Source of the DNA: Wenzhouxiangella sp. XN24
GTDB taxonomy: Bacteria; Pseudomonadota; Gammaproteobacteria; Steroidobacterales; XN24
NCBI RefSeq assembly: GCF_011064545.1
Contig: NZ_JAAMFG010000034.1
Location: forward strand, 434,001-498,000
Reading direction: 5' to 3'
DNA length: 64,000 bases
The notes under the pieces were generated by a model. The model was not told the origin of the DNA, did no database searches, and was given only the letters and a program-made list of their open reading frames with translations. Shown here piece by piece: positions 8,633 to 22,383 of this stretch. A program made the translations under genes and the position numbers. Position 1 is the stretch's first letter. Each line of letters opens with the position of its first letter.

Positions 8633-9241
8633 CTACACCTGGATCCCGGAGAATGCCATGAAGGCCATCGCCATCAGGCCGGTGGAAATGAACGTGATCC
8701 CGAGGCCTTGCAGCCCGTCCGGCACATCGCTGTATTTCAGCTTCTCCCGGATCCCCGCCAGCGCGACGATCGCCAGCGCCCAGCCCACGCCGCTGCCGAT
8801 CCCGTAGGTCACGCTCTGGGCAAAATCGTAGTTCCGCTCCACCATGAAGAGGCTGCCGCCGAGAATGGCGCAGTTGACGGTGATCAGCGGCAGGAAGATG
8901 CCCAATGCCGAATACAGGGCGGGGAAGAAGCGGTCGAGCGTCATCTCGAGGATCTGCACCATGGCGGCGATCACCCCGATGTAGGTGATCAGGCCGAGAA
9001 AGGACAGGTCCACCTGGGGCAAGCCCGCCCAGTCGAGCGCGCCGGGACGCAGGATGAACTGGTAGATCAGGCTGTTGGCCGGCACGGTGATGGCCTGCAC
9101 CACCACCACGGCGAGGCCCAGCCCGATGGCGGTCTCCACTTTCTTCGATACCGCCAGGAAAGTGCACATGCCGAGGAAAAACGCGAGCGCCAGGTTCTCG
9201 ATGAAGACCGCTCGCAGGAAAAGGCCGATGAGTCCTTCCAT
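8633..9241 (-). CDS. nqrE: Na+-NQR subunit E
   Basis: A 202-residue integral membrane subunit with six hydrophobic helices. Together with NqrD it forms the channel-like core that holds an intramembrane iron centre; Cys26-region (LGMCTF) and the later VNCAILGG supply the expected cysteines. The ATG at 9241 overlaps the nqrD stop (ATGA), giving translational coupling. Confidence 0.95.
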
Positions 9242-9900
9242 CACAGCGCCTCCGTGCGGTGCACGACATGGATCTGGTATTCGGGTTTCTCCACCTGTGC
9301 CGGCTTCCAGGTCCGGATCGCCCAGATCATGAGCCCGATGATGAAGAACGCGGAGGGCGCGAGCAGCATGAGCCCGTTGGGCAGGTACCAGCCCCCCTCG
9401 CTGGCGAGGGGGAGGATCTCGATGCCGAACAGCTTCCCGGAACCGAACAGTTCGCGGAAGAACGCCACCACCAGCAACACCAGCGCATAGCCGATGCCGT
9501 GCCCGATGCCGTCGAGCACGCTGGGGCCGACCGGGTTGCTGGAGGCGAATGCCTCGGCGCGTCCGAGCACGATGCAGTTGGTGATGATCAGGCCGACGAA
9601 CACGGACAGCTGCCGGCTGATGTCGTAAGCGAAGGCCTTGAGAAACTGGTCGACGAGAATCACGAGCGAGGCGATGATCGTCATCTGGATGATGATGCGG
9701 ATGTTGCCCGGCATGTGATTGCGAATCATGCTGATGGCCGCACTCGAGGCGGCGATGACGAAAATGAGCGCCAGGCCCATGATCAACGACGGAATCATCT
9801 GGGTCGTCACGGCCAGTGCCGAGCACACCCCCAGGATCTGCAGGGTGATGGGGTTGCGGTCGATGACCGGTTCGAGAAGTATCTTGCCCGTCGTGTTCAT
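9241..9900 (-). CDS. nqrD: Na+-NQR subunit D
   Basis: A 219-residue membrane subunit with about six helices, paired with NqrE in inverted topology. The cysteines LGVCSALAV and [13 protein letters not shown] are the expected ligands of the shared iron centre. The ATG at 9900 overlaps the nqrC stop by four bases, so the upstream open frame, which has no membrane-protein character, is not used. Confidence 0.95.
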
Positions 9901-18374: not shown

Positions 18375-19247
18375 ATGCCACCTGACGCATCCACATCGGG
18401 CCCGGAGACCGTGTCGGCCAGCCGGAGAGGCGCCGTCACCCTGATCACGCTGGATCGGCCGGACGCGAGGAATGCCGTCGATCCGGCGACGGCCTTCGCG
18501 CTCTATCGCGCGATCGTAGCTTTCGAAGCGGATGACGAGGCGGCGGTCGCCGTCCTGGCGGGCGCCGGCGGCAGCTTCTGCGCCGGTTTCGACCTGAAGA
18601 CGCTCTCCCGGGGCGAGGCCGCGGACTGGCTGGCGCAACTGCATTTCGGCGAGACCGGACAGCCGCCGCTCGGTCCCATGGGTCCGACACGCCTGCGCCT
18701 CGGCAAGCCGGTCATCGCGGCGATCGCGGGTGCAGCGGTCGCGGGTGGCATGGAACTCGCACTGTGGTGCGATATGCGCGTGATGGAACGGGATGCCTGG
18801 ATGGGGGTCTTGTGTCGTCGCTGGGGCGTGCCGCTGATCGACGGCGGCACGGTGCGCCTGCCGCGGCTCGTCGGGCAGGGCCGTGCCCTCGACCTGGTCC
18901 TCACCGGGCGCCGAATCGAAGCCGCCGAGTGCCATGCCATCGGCCTGTGCGACAGGGTCGTGGCACCCGGGGACGCGGTGGATGCAGCCATGGCGCTGGC
19001 CGCGGAACTCGCCGCTCTGCCGCAGGCCTGCCTGCGCGGCGATCGTGCGGCCGCCCGCTTCGGTGCGTTCAGCGACGAGGAAGCCGCCCTGCGCGCCGAG
19101 TTCCAGGCCGGTCTCGATGTCCTGCGCGCAGACGGCTTGCGCGGTGCGGCGGCCTTCGCCGCCGGCGCGGGCCGTCACGGTGCCCCGGGCGATGACGCCG
19201 ATGGTGCCGGCGGCGGCGCGGCAGTCAGGCCGCGTGATCCGCCCTGA
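18375..19247 (+). CDS. enoyl-CoA hydratase/isomerase (crotonase) family protein
   Basis: A 290-residue crotonase-fold protein. The two oxyanion-hole segments are GGSFCAGFDLKTL (about residues 65-77) and AIAGAAVAGGMELALWCDM (about 116-134). Family members hydrate, isomerise or hydrolyse acyl-CoA thioesters; the substrate cannot be told here. The C-terminal tail after residue 255 is Ala/Gly-rich and not conserved in character. It lies alone on the plus strand between the NAGGN operon and the ATP-grasp operon, and its end overlaps the convergent ligase gene by 23 bases. Confidence 0.85.
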   Translation: MPPDASTSGPETVSASRRGAVTLITLDRPDARNAVDPATAFALYRAIVAFEADDEAAVAVLAGAGGSFCAGFDLKTLSRGEAADWLAQLHFGETGQPPLGPMGPTRLRLGKPVIAAIAGAAVAGGMELALWCDMRVMERDAWMGVLCRRWGVPLIDGGTVRLPRLVGQGRALDLVLTGRRIEAAECHAIGLCDRVVAPGDAVDAAMALAAELAALPQACLRGDRAAARFGAFSDEEAALRAEFQAGLDVLRADGLRGAAAFAAGAGRHGAPGDDADGAGGGAAVRPRDPP

Positions 19248-20196
19248 AACCCCGGCGCGCCATGTCACGCGCCAGCGCCACTCGCTCGAGCGGTGTATGC
19301 GCACGCTCCCCGAGAGGATCGAAGGCCTCGGTACGCCGCCGCAGGCCGTCCCCGTTGGCGATCTGCACGTTCAGGCCCGGACGCGCGTTGAGCTCCAGCA
19401 GCAGCGGGCCGCGTTCCGCATCCAGCACGATATCCACGCCGAGATAGCCGAGGCCCGCCAGCTCATAGCAACGCGCGGCCATGTGCAGCGCTTCTTTCCA
19501 GTGGGGAATCGTCCGGCCCGAGATCCTCGCGCCGGTGTCGGGATGCTCGTCGAGCACGATATTGCCGGGGGCCACGGCGGGCAGGGTCAAGCCGGTGGCG
19601 ATATCGATCCCGGCACCCATCGCGCCCTGGTGAAGATTGGCTTTACCGTCGGACTGGCGGGTCGGCAGCCGCACCATCGACATGATCGGAAAACCGCGGT
19701 AGACGATGATCCGGAGGTCGGGGACCCCCTGGAAACTGACCTCGTCGAACACCGGGTCGAAGCGCACCCGGTATTCCACCATCACCTGGTCGGGCAACCC
19801 CCCGAGACTGAACTGGCCGCTCAGGGCGTTGGTGATGTGGTGTTCCATGTCCGCCTCGTCGAGCAGCCGTCCGCCCGCGGTGCGGTAGCGGCCCTTGCGC
19901 TGCTCCATGATCACCAGGATGCCGTCACCCTGGCTGCCGTGCGCCGGTTTCACGACAAAGCCGGGCTTGCCGGCGATCATGCCGGCGAGATCCCGGATTT
20001 CGTGCGGCGTCGAAAGCTGGCCATAGAGTTCCGGCACCGGGACGCCATGCAGGATCGCCCGCTCCTTGGTCAGCAGCTTGTTGTCCACGATCGGGAAATT
20101 GCGGCGCGGATTGAGCGGCATGATGTAATCCGCATTGCGCCGATTGATGCCCATCACCCCGGCCGCCTGCAAGGCGCGCCAGCGTCGCCGGATCAC
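19225..20196 (-). CDS. alpha-L-glutamate ligase-like ATP-grasp protein (RimK-related)
   Basis: A 323-residue ATP-grasp ligase related to RimK and cyanophycin-type ligases, expected to form an amide bond to an amino acid such as glutamate. Visible ATP-grasp parts are GFVVKPAHGSQGDGILVI (ATP-binding lysine), VEYRVRFDPVFDEVSFQGVPDLRII, and the metal-binding LLLELNARPGLNVQIANGDG. The GTG start at 20196 overlaps the stop of the membrane gene (GTGA), so the two are translationally coupled. The longer open frame upstream is an Arg-rich shadow of the membrane gene. Acceptor and donor are unknown. Confidence 0.85.
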   Translation of the reverse strand: MIRRRWRALQAAGVMGINRRNADYIMPLNPRRNFPIVDNKLLTKERAILHGVPVPELYGQLSTPHEIRDLAGMIAGKPGFVVKPAHGSQGDGILVIMEQRKGRYRTAGGRLLDEADMEHHITNALSGQFSLGGLPDQVMVEYRVRFDPVFDEVSFQGVPDLRIIVYRGFPIMSMVRLPTRQSDGKANLHQGAMGAGIDIATGLTLPAVAPGNIVLDEHPDTGARISGRTIPHWKEALHMAARCYELAGLGYLGVDIVLDAERGPLLLELNARPGLNVQIANGDGLRRRTEAFDPLGERAHTPLERVALARDMARRGFRADHAA

Positions 20197-21716
20197 TTGC
20201 CGCCTCCGGCGAGCGCGCGGAACCGCAGCAGTTCGGTGAGGCGGTAGCCGGTGTAGCGCCCGAGCAGCAGGATCGCGGCGAGCACCACCAGCAGCGTCTC
20301 CGGAAACACCAGCAGGAAGTATCGGACGGCGGGCATGATCATGACGAGGTAGATCACGGCGGCCGCGACCAGCGTGCCGATCCCTTCCTTGATGGCTTCG
20401 GCCGGGCCGCGCTCCTCCCAGAGGATCGACATGCGCTCGATGGTCATCGCGATGATCACCATCGGGAACAGGGCGACCGACAGTCCCACCTCGATGCCGA
20501 GGCGGTGCGTCACGATGCTGACCAGCGCCATCAACAACACGACGACGGTCAGCACGGCCGCGAGGCGCGGCACGAGAAGCAGCCGCAGCCGCTCGAGATA
20601 GAAGCGGATCGACAGGCCCGCCGCGACGATCAGCACGAACAGCACGATCCCGTTCAGCAACTGTGTCTCGCGAAACGCCATCGCGACGAGCACCGGCATG
20701 AAAGTACCGAAGGTGCTGATTCCGACCACGTTGCGCAACAGCACCACGAGGAAGGCGCCGAGCGGCACCAGCAGGAGAATGGAATAGAGCGACTGCGTCT
20801 GGAGCGGCAGGTTCAGCAACGAGAAATCGACGATCCGCGGATGATCCCGCTGGGCGCGGAACTCGGCGACACGCAAAGCGTCTTCGATCGTGTAACGCAT
20901 CGAGAAACTGACCCGCGGCGAGCGGGCCCCTTCGACCTCGAGCACCCGCTCCCCGCTCCAGGACCACACCAGCGTGTTGGCCGGCAATCCGCGCCGGCCC
21001 TCGCGCGGATCGAAATAGAGCCATTCGCTGCCGTTGTGGACCATGATCCAGAATTCGAGCTCGGCATCGCGACGGTCGTCAGCGAGGCGCAGCGCCTGGA
21101 TCACCTGCGCGGGAATGCGCGCCGAATGCAGAATCTTGATGACCAGGTCGGCCTGCGCCGCGGGATCGGGCCGCGCCCCGGTGAACAGGCGCACCGCACC
21201 TTCCGTCCCCTGTGCGACGCGGATGGCACCGGCCGCGAACGTGGCGATATCGGCAGACTCCTGGCGCACGCGGGTCACCAGCTCGTCGAGGGCCGATGCC
21301 TCGGGTTCCTCGAGTCGCGGTACCGGCGGAAACCCCGGCACCGGCCGTTCCGGCTGGTGGGTCCGGTCCCGGAACAAGGTCACGCGATAGTAGAGCGCCT
21401 GTTCGCCTCGCGCCCGGCGCAGGGACCAGACAGCGCGACGGGACTCCCCTTCTCCCTCGAGCGCCAGGCCGTAACCGCGCGAGATGAATTGCTCGTCGAA
21501 AATGCGAAAGCCCGGGGGCTCGGACGGCAGACCGAAGCTCGCCTTCACCGGCCCGGCGGTGCTCCGGCTGAAGGCGACGCGCGCCTCCACGGTCCAGGTG
21601 TCCGCGTCGCGATCCGCGCTGAGGGGAAAGCCGAGCACCTGCCATTTGAAGACGAAGAAACCCGTGCCGATCACGCTCAGGACCAGCACGAGGATCAACA
21701 GGTGCCTCAGTCTCAC
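20193..21716 (-). CDS. inactive transglutaminase / 7TM membrane protein
   Basis: A 507-residue membrane protein. One N-terminal anchor (about residues 5-27) is followed by an exported domain (30-310) containing a transglutaminase-like fold region (TRVRQESADIATFA through WLYFDPREGRRGLP) without an obvious catalytic Cys. About seven membrane helices follow (roughly 320-500). This matches the inactive-transglutaminase/UUP1-type family found between a retropepsin-like protease and an ATP-grasp ligase. It overlaps both neighbours by four bases. The function is unknown; it may bind a peptide outside the membrane. Confidence 0.82.
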   Translation of the reverse strand: MRLRHLLILVLVLSVIGTGFFVFKWQVLGFPLSADRDADTWTVEARVAFSRSTAGPVKASFGLPSEPPGFRIFDEQFISRGYGLALEGEGESRRAVWSLRRARGEQALYYRVTLFRDRTHQPERPVPGFPPVPRLEEPEASALDELVTRVRQESADIATFAAGAIRVAQGTEGAVRLFTGARPDPAAQADLVIKILHSARIPAQVIQALRLADDRRDAELEFWIMVHNGSEWLYFDPREGRRGLPANTLVWSWSGERVLEVEGARSPRVSFSMRYTIEDALRVAEFRAQRDHPRIVDFSLLNLPLQTQSLYSILLLVPLGAFLVVLLRNVVGISTFGTFMPVLVAMAFRETQLLNGIVLFVLIVAAGLSIRFYLERLRLLLVPRLAAVLTVVVLLMALVSIVTHRLGIEVGLSVALFPMVIIAMTIERMSILWEERGPAEAIKEGIGTLVAAAVIYLVMIMPAVRYFLLVFPETLLVVLAAILLLGRYTGYRLTELLRFRALAGGGK

Positions 21717-22273
21717 TCAGCGAGCTCCGCGAGATCACACTTCGGCCTGCTGGTGAACGTCAGGTCCGGATCGACGATCACTGCACTCCGCATGGCGCTG
21801 CGGCCGATCAGCAGTGGATAGATCAGCTGCTTGCGGGAGGTGAGGTTGACTTCCACCTCACGGACCAGGTGTCCCAGGCAGAGCCGCATCCTCACGACCG
21901 GCCTGCGGACGGGCGGGCCCTCGTGCTGCCGGATGCGGACGTTGCGCACCAGCGGGCGCTCCAGGGTGACGTACTCGTCGGTCGCGGGATCGCGGACGTC
22001 GAAGCGGACATAGCGCGCATCGCCGCGCCGGAAACGGACGATATTGTGCGCATCGAGCGAACTGGTCAGCGCGCCGGTATCCAGACGCGCCTTGAGGCTG
22101 AGCCCCTCCGCGGAGATCACGACCCGCTCGACATAGCCGAAAATCGTCTTGCCGGGATCGCGTGCGCCCGCCTGCGATGCGCCGGCGAGCACGAACACGA
22201 GAAGCAAAGACACCTGTACCAGGCTTCGTCTCAAGCGCTTGCCTCCTGGGAATGCGCGCCGCGTTCGACGCAT
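21713..22273 (-). CDS. RimB-like retropepsin-fold protease, predicted exported
   Basis: A 186-residue protein with a basic N terminus and hydrophobic signal sequence (about residues 18-38, ending SQAGA), followed by a retropepsin-like domain. The active-site motif LDTGALTSSLDA has DTG at residues 65-67. The family is often labelled ATP-dependent zinc protease, but the DTG motif points to an aspartic protease fold. Its end overlaps the 7TM gene (ATGA). It starts the operon, about 34 bases downstream of tRNA-Lys. The target is unknown; opposition to the ligase (cutting what the ligase joins) is inference. Confidence 0.82.
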   Translation of the reverse strand: MRRTRRAFPGGKRLRRSLVQVSLLLVFVLAGASQAGARDPGKTIFGYVERVVISAEGLSLKARLDTGALTSSLDAHNIVRFRRGDARYVRFDVRDPATDEYVTLERPLVRNVRIRQHEGPPVRRPVVRMRLCLGHLVREVEVNLTSRKQLIYPLLIGRSAMRSAVIVDPDLTFTSRPKCDLAELAE

Positions 22274-22307: not shown

Positions 22308-22383
22308 TGGTGGGCCGCCTGGGACTCGAACCCAGAACCATCGGATTAAAAGTCCGGTGCTCTACCAATTGAGCTAACGGCCC
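22308..22383 (-). tRNA. tRNA-Lys (TTT)
   Basis: A 76-base tRNA with encoded CCA. The acceptor stem GGGCCGT pairs with GCGGCCC, the anticodon loop is CTTTTAA, and the T loop is TTCGAGT. The top pair of the anticodon stem is a C-A mismatch (CCGGA against TCCGA). It is transcribed leftwards between queC and the retropepsin gene. Confidence 0.97.

Follow-up and report, generated by a model that had tools for sequence, protein, structure and literature searches.

An rlo-type operon in Wenzhouxiangella sp. XN24 and its relatives that carry a transglutaminase cysteine

The rlo operon was characterised in Pseudomonas aeruginosa in 2025 (Lormand et al., PMC12239564), and we describe here an operon of the same kind in a stretch of 64,000 nucleotides from Wenzhouxiangella sp. 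XN24 (contig NZ_JAAMFG010000034.1, positions 434,001 to 498,000; the whole stretch is called the window below). As reported in the part of that article drawn on here, the operon is widely conserved in Gammaproteobacteria and its genes rloA, rloB and rloC act in one pathway. It affects growth without salt, biofilm formation, beta-lactam sensitivity and cell shape, the three redundant RloA proteins of P. aeruginosa being needed for the first two, for beta-lactam tolerance and for normal shape. Growth without salt is lost in the triple rloA mutant and restored by loss of rloB or rloC. In vitro, RloA cuts runs of 8 or 10 glutamates and leaves runs of 6 or fewer uncut; it also cleaves a glutamate tail on a protein. 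Its catalytic aspartate is required, and the substitutions R114A and R137A, which weaken polyglutamate cleavage most strongly, give no rescue in vivo (PMC12239564).

Two other published systems are related to these proteins. RimK and RimB make poly-alpha-glutamate, with the ribosomal protein RpsF as a target, according to the material available from PMC11957791. Shewanella vesiculosa over-vesiculates when a gene for an inactive transglutaminase with seven transmembrane helices (7TM) is disrupted, as far as the consulted part of PMC12096838 goes; this fits an envelope role.

The three proteins of the window operon

The operon runs from 22273 to 19225 on the minus strand and consists of three co-directional genes in the order protease, membrane protein and ligase: rloA (21713..22273, 186 amino acids (aa), ATG start), rloB (20193..21716, 507 aa, GTG start) and rloC (19225..20196, 323 aa, GTG start). 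These are the same three families, in the same order and on one strand, as in the rlo operon of P. aeruginosa and P. fluorescens, namely an exported DTG retropepsin with a cysteine pair and glutamate-contacting arginines, a dead transglutaminase with a 7TM domain, and an ATP-grasp ligase. The trio is thus an rlo-type operon, a new member of the published kind. A preliminary description of the window, prepared from its letters alone, had the families right and missed both the published operon and the transglutaminase-active relatives described below. Its motifs and segments, including the hydrophobic N-terminus of RloA and the approximately seven helices of RloB, were found again, as were exact four-base overlaps at both junctions: open reading frame (ORF) coordinates and sequence place a GTGA at 21713..21716 (rloA/rloB) and at 20193..20196 (rloB/rloC), both on the minus strand. 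Exact overlaps are kept in only part of the relatives, so that the four-base overlap is no conserved signature.

RloA matches the retropepsin-like family PF05618 (5.9e-36), and the solved structures related to it are 9g58 (1.1e-23), 2pma and 9g59. Its export was judged by hydropathy: a basic stretch and then a hydrophobic one (12-residue mean hydropathy 2.86) precede the protease domain and form a putative signal sequence of about residues 1-37 (22163..22273, minus strand). The sequence DTGA occupies residues 65-68, with the DTG motif of the predicted catalytic Asp65 at 22073..22081 (minus strand). In order to compare the polyglutamate-contacting residues, K46, R92, R114 and R137 of P. aeruginosa were mapped via P. 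fluorescens RloA, using the letters of 9g58, on which they lie at offsets of -2, +44, +66 and +89 from the catalytic aspartate. The window protein has Arg63 (replacing K46), an aligned arginine, Arg124 and Arg146 at these positions, and its Cys132 and Cys179 align with the periplasmic cysteine pair. Judged by this alignment, it keeps the catalytic Asp65, the cysteine pair and the arginines expected to contact polyglutamate.

The host genome contains two PF05618 genes, the operon rloA and one of RimB type, which has a RimK-like match close by (G000:C28); this differs from the three redundant RloA proteins of P. aeruginosa. The RimB-RimK system is alike in having a homologous protease and ligase pair and polyglutamate chemistry, and differs in that RimB has neither signal nor cysteine pair, RimK carries an extra N-terminal domain and there is no RloB. 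Since both a signal and the cysteine pair are present, the window RloA is not of the cytosolic RimB type; it scores 69.3 bits against the RimB model, below the cut-off of 200.

RloB consists of an N-terminal helix, an inactive transglutaminase-like domain that is probably periplasmic, and about seven membrane helices. Pfam finds PF14400 (3.7e-42) and, at residues 257-502 (20211..20948, minus strand), the 7TM_transglut membrane domain PF14402 (2.7e-101, 338.7 bits). A structural model built on a 42-row alignment (mean pLDDT 90.9, pTM 0.80) has one N-terminal helix, a beta-rich and transglutaminase-like region and a helical membrane part with broken helices. Residues 38-279 match 3isr, a bacterial cysteine-protease structure, with Z 15.1 over 220 residues and an rmsd of 3.5. 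In the alignment the transglutaminase cysteine and histidine are lost and the aspartate is kept, and the catalytic column holds a cysteine in none of 32 distinct classical RloB sequences (33 with the window entered twice, as WIN and L022; L063 and L064 of genome G033 were dropped). This bears out the inactivity proposed in the preliminary description. The membrane part resembles the NqrD/RnfA fold weakly (Z 8.3 over 124 residues), which may be no more than a common helical arrangement; profile comparison gave kinship with NqrD/RnfA no support (hhalign probability 0.3%). G132 (L068) and G055 (L067) have 7TM proteins with a dead transglutaminase that form a third type, unaccompanied by a TIGR02291 ligase. 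Both were considered as active transglutaminases, the latter having a Pfam Transglut_core match, and were discarded because the alignment shows no catalytic cysteine. In G132 an RloA-type gene stands head to head with the 7TM gene, and a RimK-like gene lies a few kb away.

RloC is, by its HMM matches, a RimK-related ATP-grasp ligase, as had been proposed. Its best Pfam match is PF14397 (7.8e-90), followed by RimK (2.7e-8); it scores 426 bits against TIGR02291, above the cut-off of 314.2, and 46.5 bits against the RimK subfamily TIGR00768, below the cut-off of 143.4. On alignment, similarity starts at RimK residue 87, which means that the RimK N-terminal domain is missing. RloC keeps the stretches VVK...GxG, DxR, NLHxG, GVDI and ExNxxPG, the last within the ELNARPG motif at residues 268-274 (19375..19395, minus strand). 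PF14401 was also tried as the family of the ligase and rejected, as it matches another RimK-like gene outside the trio (G000:C24:19159). That gene (L001, G000:C24:19159-19596) is an ATP-grasp gene with an RLAN N-terminal domain.

Co-occurrence of the three genes

In order to determine how regularly the three genes occur together, we searched a class sample of 185 genomes, the host included. PF14402 was found in 39 of them (40 matches), PF05618 in 90 and TIGR02291 above its cut-off in 32. A TIGR02291 match, in some cases below the cut-off, lies directly downstream on the same strand at 36 of the 40 PF14402 matches, and PF05618 directly upstream on the same strand at 31, so that the recurrence of the trio claimed in the preliminary description holds. 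For the 33 strongest (classical) PF14402 matches the protease is present in 31, the exceptions being G167 and G120, whose sole PF05618 gene looks RimB-type. Among 19 relatives, again counting the host, the 10 genomes that have RloB are also the 10 that have RloC; the protease adjoins the pair in eight and does not in G167 and G191, the common layout of which we read as pepP-ubiH-rloB-rloC. In a phylum sample, PF14402 is present in 48 of 299 genomes, 15 of them outside the class. RloB and RloC therefore travel as a unit which RloA usually joins; a strict need of RloA wherever the other two occur is ruled out by G167, G191 and G120. Two genomes of the window's own genus are without RloB and RloC; their PF05618 genes, one apiece, encode 155-158 aa and in this resemble the RimB-type gene of the host.

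Sorting of the PF05618 proteases by hydropathy, over 125 stretches in which some genes are counted twice, gave 41 with a hydrophobic N-terminus, 35 with the cysteine pair and 32 with both. For five operon proteases (L004, L007, L009, L012 and L025) the sorting missed the N-terminus, owing to a late start of the stretch or to an extended frame; all five have long N-terminal extensions. RimB-type domains were also observed in open frames of 467-513 aa (L284, L285, L288, L292, also L274 and L278), which is what RimB-RimK hybrids would look like. Of these, L284, L285, L288 and L292 belong to genomes of Henriciella, Hyphomonadaceae and Maricaulis.

A sister branch with a transglutaminase cysteine

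At four loci of the class sample (G101, G033, G071 and G181) a diverged RloB accompanies the ligase, to which it is fused in G181, and the Pfam transglutaminase core is present in both diverged loci scanned for it (G101 and G181). Named genomes were scanned with the four diverged proteins; 123 pattern matches yielded 91 relatives, the best 80 of which (L073-L152) were analysed. Three (L073, L075 and L078) are the same contigs as the class-sample loci L062, L065 and L063, and related loci are not independent of each other. All 80 have a cysteine in the catalytic column, as against none of the 32 classical sequences. The histidine is present in 80 and the aspartate in 68, a conservation that is largely by construction, since the search patterns were built on these two residues; the cysteine lay outside the patterns. 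The loci come from bins or isolates labelled Gammaproteobacteria, Ghiorsea, Mariprofundaceae, Hyphomonadaceae and relatives, Campylobacterales, Myxococcota, Deltaproteobacteria, Nitrospirota, Spirochaetes and Bacteroidota, the isolates including Kangiella, Aliikangiella, Marinifaba and Anaeromyxobacter. Many are metagenome bins, some of them possibly mis-binned or transferred (for example Nitrospirota bins with 53-63% identity to the gammaproteobacterial query).

RloC is adjacent to, overlaps or is fused with RloB in 79 of these 80 loci, the exception (L108) being a locus that ends there, and the two are fused in 24. None of the 80 has an RloA-like match at the locus. A protein matching a tetratricopeptide repeat (TPR) profile by HMM is encoded directly downstream in 67 of the 72 loci with room for it, with a hydrophobic N-terminus in 63 of the 67; most of these proteins have 595-761 aa, three are near 1000 aa and a few are partial. 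A third family, of about 400 aa, follows downstream in 48 of the 80 loci, five of them with weak matches, or in 46 of the 64 that leave 3.5 kb of space; L117 and L130, both from Spirochaetes, instead have weak matches upstream of rloB. AlphaFold gave the G101 member of this family 16 long strands (mean pLDDT 92.5, pTM 0.86), and the best Foldseek match is to a barrel of the Mtr complex, with mainly porins next in rank, so we predict an outer-membrane barrel. AlgE was dropped as a specific match, its scores being equalled or exceeded by those of general porins and of the Mtr barrel. The sole NCBIfam match of the G101 protein is EpsL (5.9e-6), far under the cut-off. Clustering of neighbouring ORFs recovered RloB and RloC in all 80 loci, the TPR group in 72, and the third family in 37 together with groups of 7 and 4; no other neighbour family of ORFs of at least 110 aa recurs in more than six. 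Example operons are L126:7890-13850 and L123:7917-13490; in Aliikangiella (L126 and L142) a fused RloB-RloC is accompanied by both a TPR and a barrel gene. Three Kangiella loci (L138, L147 and L148) and two of Henriciella (L134 and L135) have a fused RloB-RloC and a TPR gene with no downstream barrel-family match.

In an unrooted tree of 117 RloB sequences, including two duplicate pairs, the dead and active proteins are split with a support of 1.0, and all 25 fused proteins fall in one clade. Of the genomes that carry these loci, 44 were searched for PF05618: it is absent in 25, and the other 19 have 24 matches, four of which, in three genomes, have a hydrophobic N-terminus. G033 contains both kinds of RloB, with the retropepsin beside the dead one. 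The retropepsin thus goes with the dead transglutaminase (31 of 33) and is found at no locus with the cysteine-bearing one (0 of 80), which is suggestive, and only suggestive, of alternative processing of the same type of periplasmic chain; the two groups also differ in phylogeny, which weakens the contrast.

The window operon belongs with the dead group: its RloB has a non-cysteine residue in the catalytic column, and a convergent enoyl-CoA hydratase gene rather than a TPR gene lies downstream. The cysteine-bearing operons share with the window operon a homologous core of RloB and RloC, adjacent or fused, and differ in having the cysteine and histidine, no retropepsin at the locus, an added TPR gene and often a barrel gene, and a clade of their own. 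The sister branch, which spans several diderm phyla, is a finding of the present analysis. It is not mentioned in the consulted part of the Pseudomonas study (PMC12239564), and we found no paper on transglutaminase-active RloB-RloC-TPR-barrel operons in a search that left the earlier comparative genomics of amidoligases (Iyer 2009) outside its range.

Synthase-dependent exopolysaccharide export, as in alginate (AlgK/AlgE) and PNAG (PgaA) systems, uses an inner-membrane synthase, a TPR protein and an outer-membrane barrel. The sister branch, and it alone, is similar, with a candidate inner-membrane synthase, a TPR protein and a predicted barrel; it has an ATP-grasp amide ligase in place of the glycosyltransferase, and the window operon is without such TPR or barrel genes. 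The poly-gamma-glutamate synthases PgsBCA/CapBCA likewise combine a membrane-linked ligase with a glutamate polymer for the envelope; by their general description they differ in the family of the ligase, in the membrane partner and in the linkage.

Proposed function and surroundings of the operon

This comparison gives a testable answer to the question of what RloB and RloC do. They look like one synthesis-and-export unit: nearly all loci have them side by side, one clade has them fused, and in the sister branch an apparent outer-membrane exit often comes after them. We give an even chance to the following account: RloC makes a glutamate-type chain, RloB passes or presents it to the periplasm, and RloA shortens it. 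Going by its family, RloC would join glutamate-type residues in the cytoplasm into an anionic chain, either free or on a carrier. In the fusions (24 of 80 loci, and G181, in the one clade of 25) the ligase follows the C-terminus of RloB; this end would face the ligase and the dead transglutaminase domain the periplasm. Adjacency, fusion and the genes of the sister branch suggest that RloB hands the chain over to the periplasm, and the frequent position of distant relatives of the two genes beside a predicted outer-membrane channel suggests that the chain crosses membranes. The exported RloA would then cut it there and so limit its amount or length. Such a chain would affect turgor and wall homeostasis: left uncut in dilute medium, such a polyanion in the periplasm would take up water and ions and growth would stop. 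This would explain both the failure to grow without salt and the rescue by loss of RloB or RloC, and the rescue of the triple rloA mutant is as expected if the latter two make what RloA removes. The window copy presumably acts like the Pseudomonas operon.

More tentatively, and as something possible rather than probable, we propose that RloB and RloC are the core of unrecognised Gram-negative envelope machines, in which a poly-amino-acid chain is made in the cytoplasm and moved outward. In the branch of the window the retropepsin would trim a chain that stays periplasmic. The sister branch would process and release it by means of an active transglutaminase, a TPR scaffold and, in many cases, a 16-strand barrel of the outer membrane. 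If true, bacteria would have a route of poly-amino-acid secretion built like those for polysaccharides, an amide-ligase counterpart of exopolysaccharide secretion. A recount of the barrel genes lowered their figure and left our confidence as it was, because the TPR, fusion and cysteine results carry most weight.

Several observations speak against these proposals or against too strict a use of the rlo names. The window proteins fall below the NCBIfam cut-offs, RloA with 127.8 bits against 210 for RloA3 (NF052264) and RloB with 487.7 against 900 (NF052267), for which reason we call the genes rlo-type and not strict RloA3 or RloB. RloC, being without the RimK N-terminal domain, may act on a substrate different from that of RimK, and polyglutamate is a proposed product for any RloC. 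The transport role of RloB is suggested by gene layout, its membrane domain giving a weak fold match and no profile match. No RloA-type gene was found with rloB-rloC in L248 (G167), L070 (G120) and L297 (G191); conversely, an RloA-type protease occurs without a PF14402 match, plainly in G015 and G085, and with less certainty in G070, G133, G154 and G174. The operon protease of L009 (G179) has DPG in place of DTG and is likely inactive. Finally, a downstream barrel-family protein is lacking at 18 of the 64 sister-branch loci that have space for one, including loci of Kangiella and Henriciella.

The same evidence can be read in other ways. RloC might polyglutamylate a specific protein or lipid bound to the membrane or periplasm, with RloB holding the substrate and RloA removing the tag, in a reversible cycle split across the inner membrane. 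RimK and RimB do likewise on RpsF (PMC11957791, in the part consulted), and RloA cuts a glutamate tail on a protein in vitro (PMC12239564, likewise). We nevertheless think it a good deal less probable than the chain account, since it has no acceptor to point to, the tag would have to cross the membrane between the cytoplasmic ligase and the periplasmic protease, and, apart from RloB, RloC, the TPR protein and the barrel family, no ORF family of at least 110 aa recurs in more than six of the 80 loci of the sister branch; the gene of an acceptor could, however, lie elsewhere. It is somewhat more doubtful still that RloB and RloC act on a substrate other than glutamate, for example by amide ligation on a polysaccharide or peptidoglycan precursor, and that polyglutamate cleavage by RloA is a side activity shared with RimB. 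The name of PF14397 (sugar-transfer associated ATP-grasp), the weak match (5.9e-6) of one sister-branch barrel to EpsL, an outer-membrane protein encoded at a polysaccharide locus, and the beta-lactam and cell-shape phenotypes (PMC12239564, as far as consulted), which point to the wall, all fit such a substrate. However, RloA mutants that are weak in polyglutamate cleavage also fail in vivo, according to the same part of that study, and family recurrence (six of 80 loci at most, neighbours not being annotated singly) gives no sign of a shared glycosyltransferase.

Dead enzyme domains often act as sensors, and the dead transglutaminase domain of RloB might accordingly sense a peptide in the periplasm, with RloB in turn controlling RloC and RloA destroying the ligand; the phenotypes would then arise from altered cytoplasmic amide metabolism instead of export. 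The retention of the fold (3isr, Z 15.1) with a catalytic cysteine in 0 of 32 sequences agrees with such a relay, which is close to the view of the preliminary description. We consider it the least likely of the readings given here, as it leaves the TPR and barrel genes and the catalytic-type transglutaminase site of the sister branch unexplained. That description had further held that no substrate was established; this stands for the substrate in vivo and does not stand in vitro, where Pseudomonas RloA cuts polyglutamate of at least eight residues in what is one pathway with RloB and RloC (PMC12239564, in the part cited). Its suggestion that the ligase adds glutamate-like residues which the exported side trims is a proposal as regards the product of RloC, and is in keeping with the Pseudomonas work.

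The surroundings of the operon are as follows. Upstream are a tRNA-Lys gene (22308-22383), queC, a radical SAM gene that we read by position as queE, a TolA-binding TPR gene and an OmpA-family gene. A consensus scan of the locus found no sigma-70-type promoter pattern, and terminator-like sites numbered 3 against 1.9 expected, so that no promoter or terminator could be read from it. Downstream of rloC is the convergent enoyl-CoA hydratase gene (18375-19247), and the ends of the two genes overlap by 23 bases (19225-19247). Elsewhere in the window, two matches (PF02508) to the Rnf-Nqr family, whose fold the RloB membrane domain resembles weakly and without support from sequence, were observed at 8642-9885.

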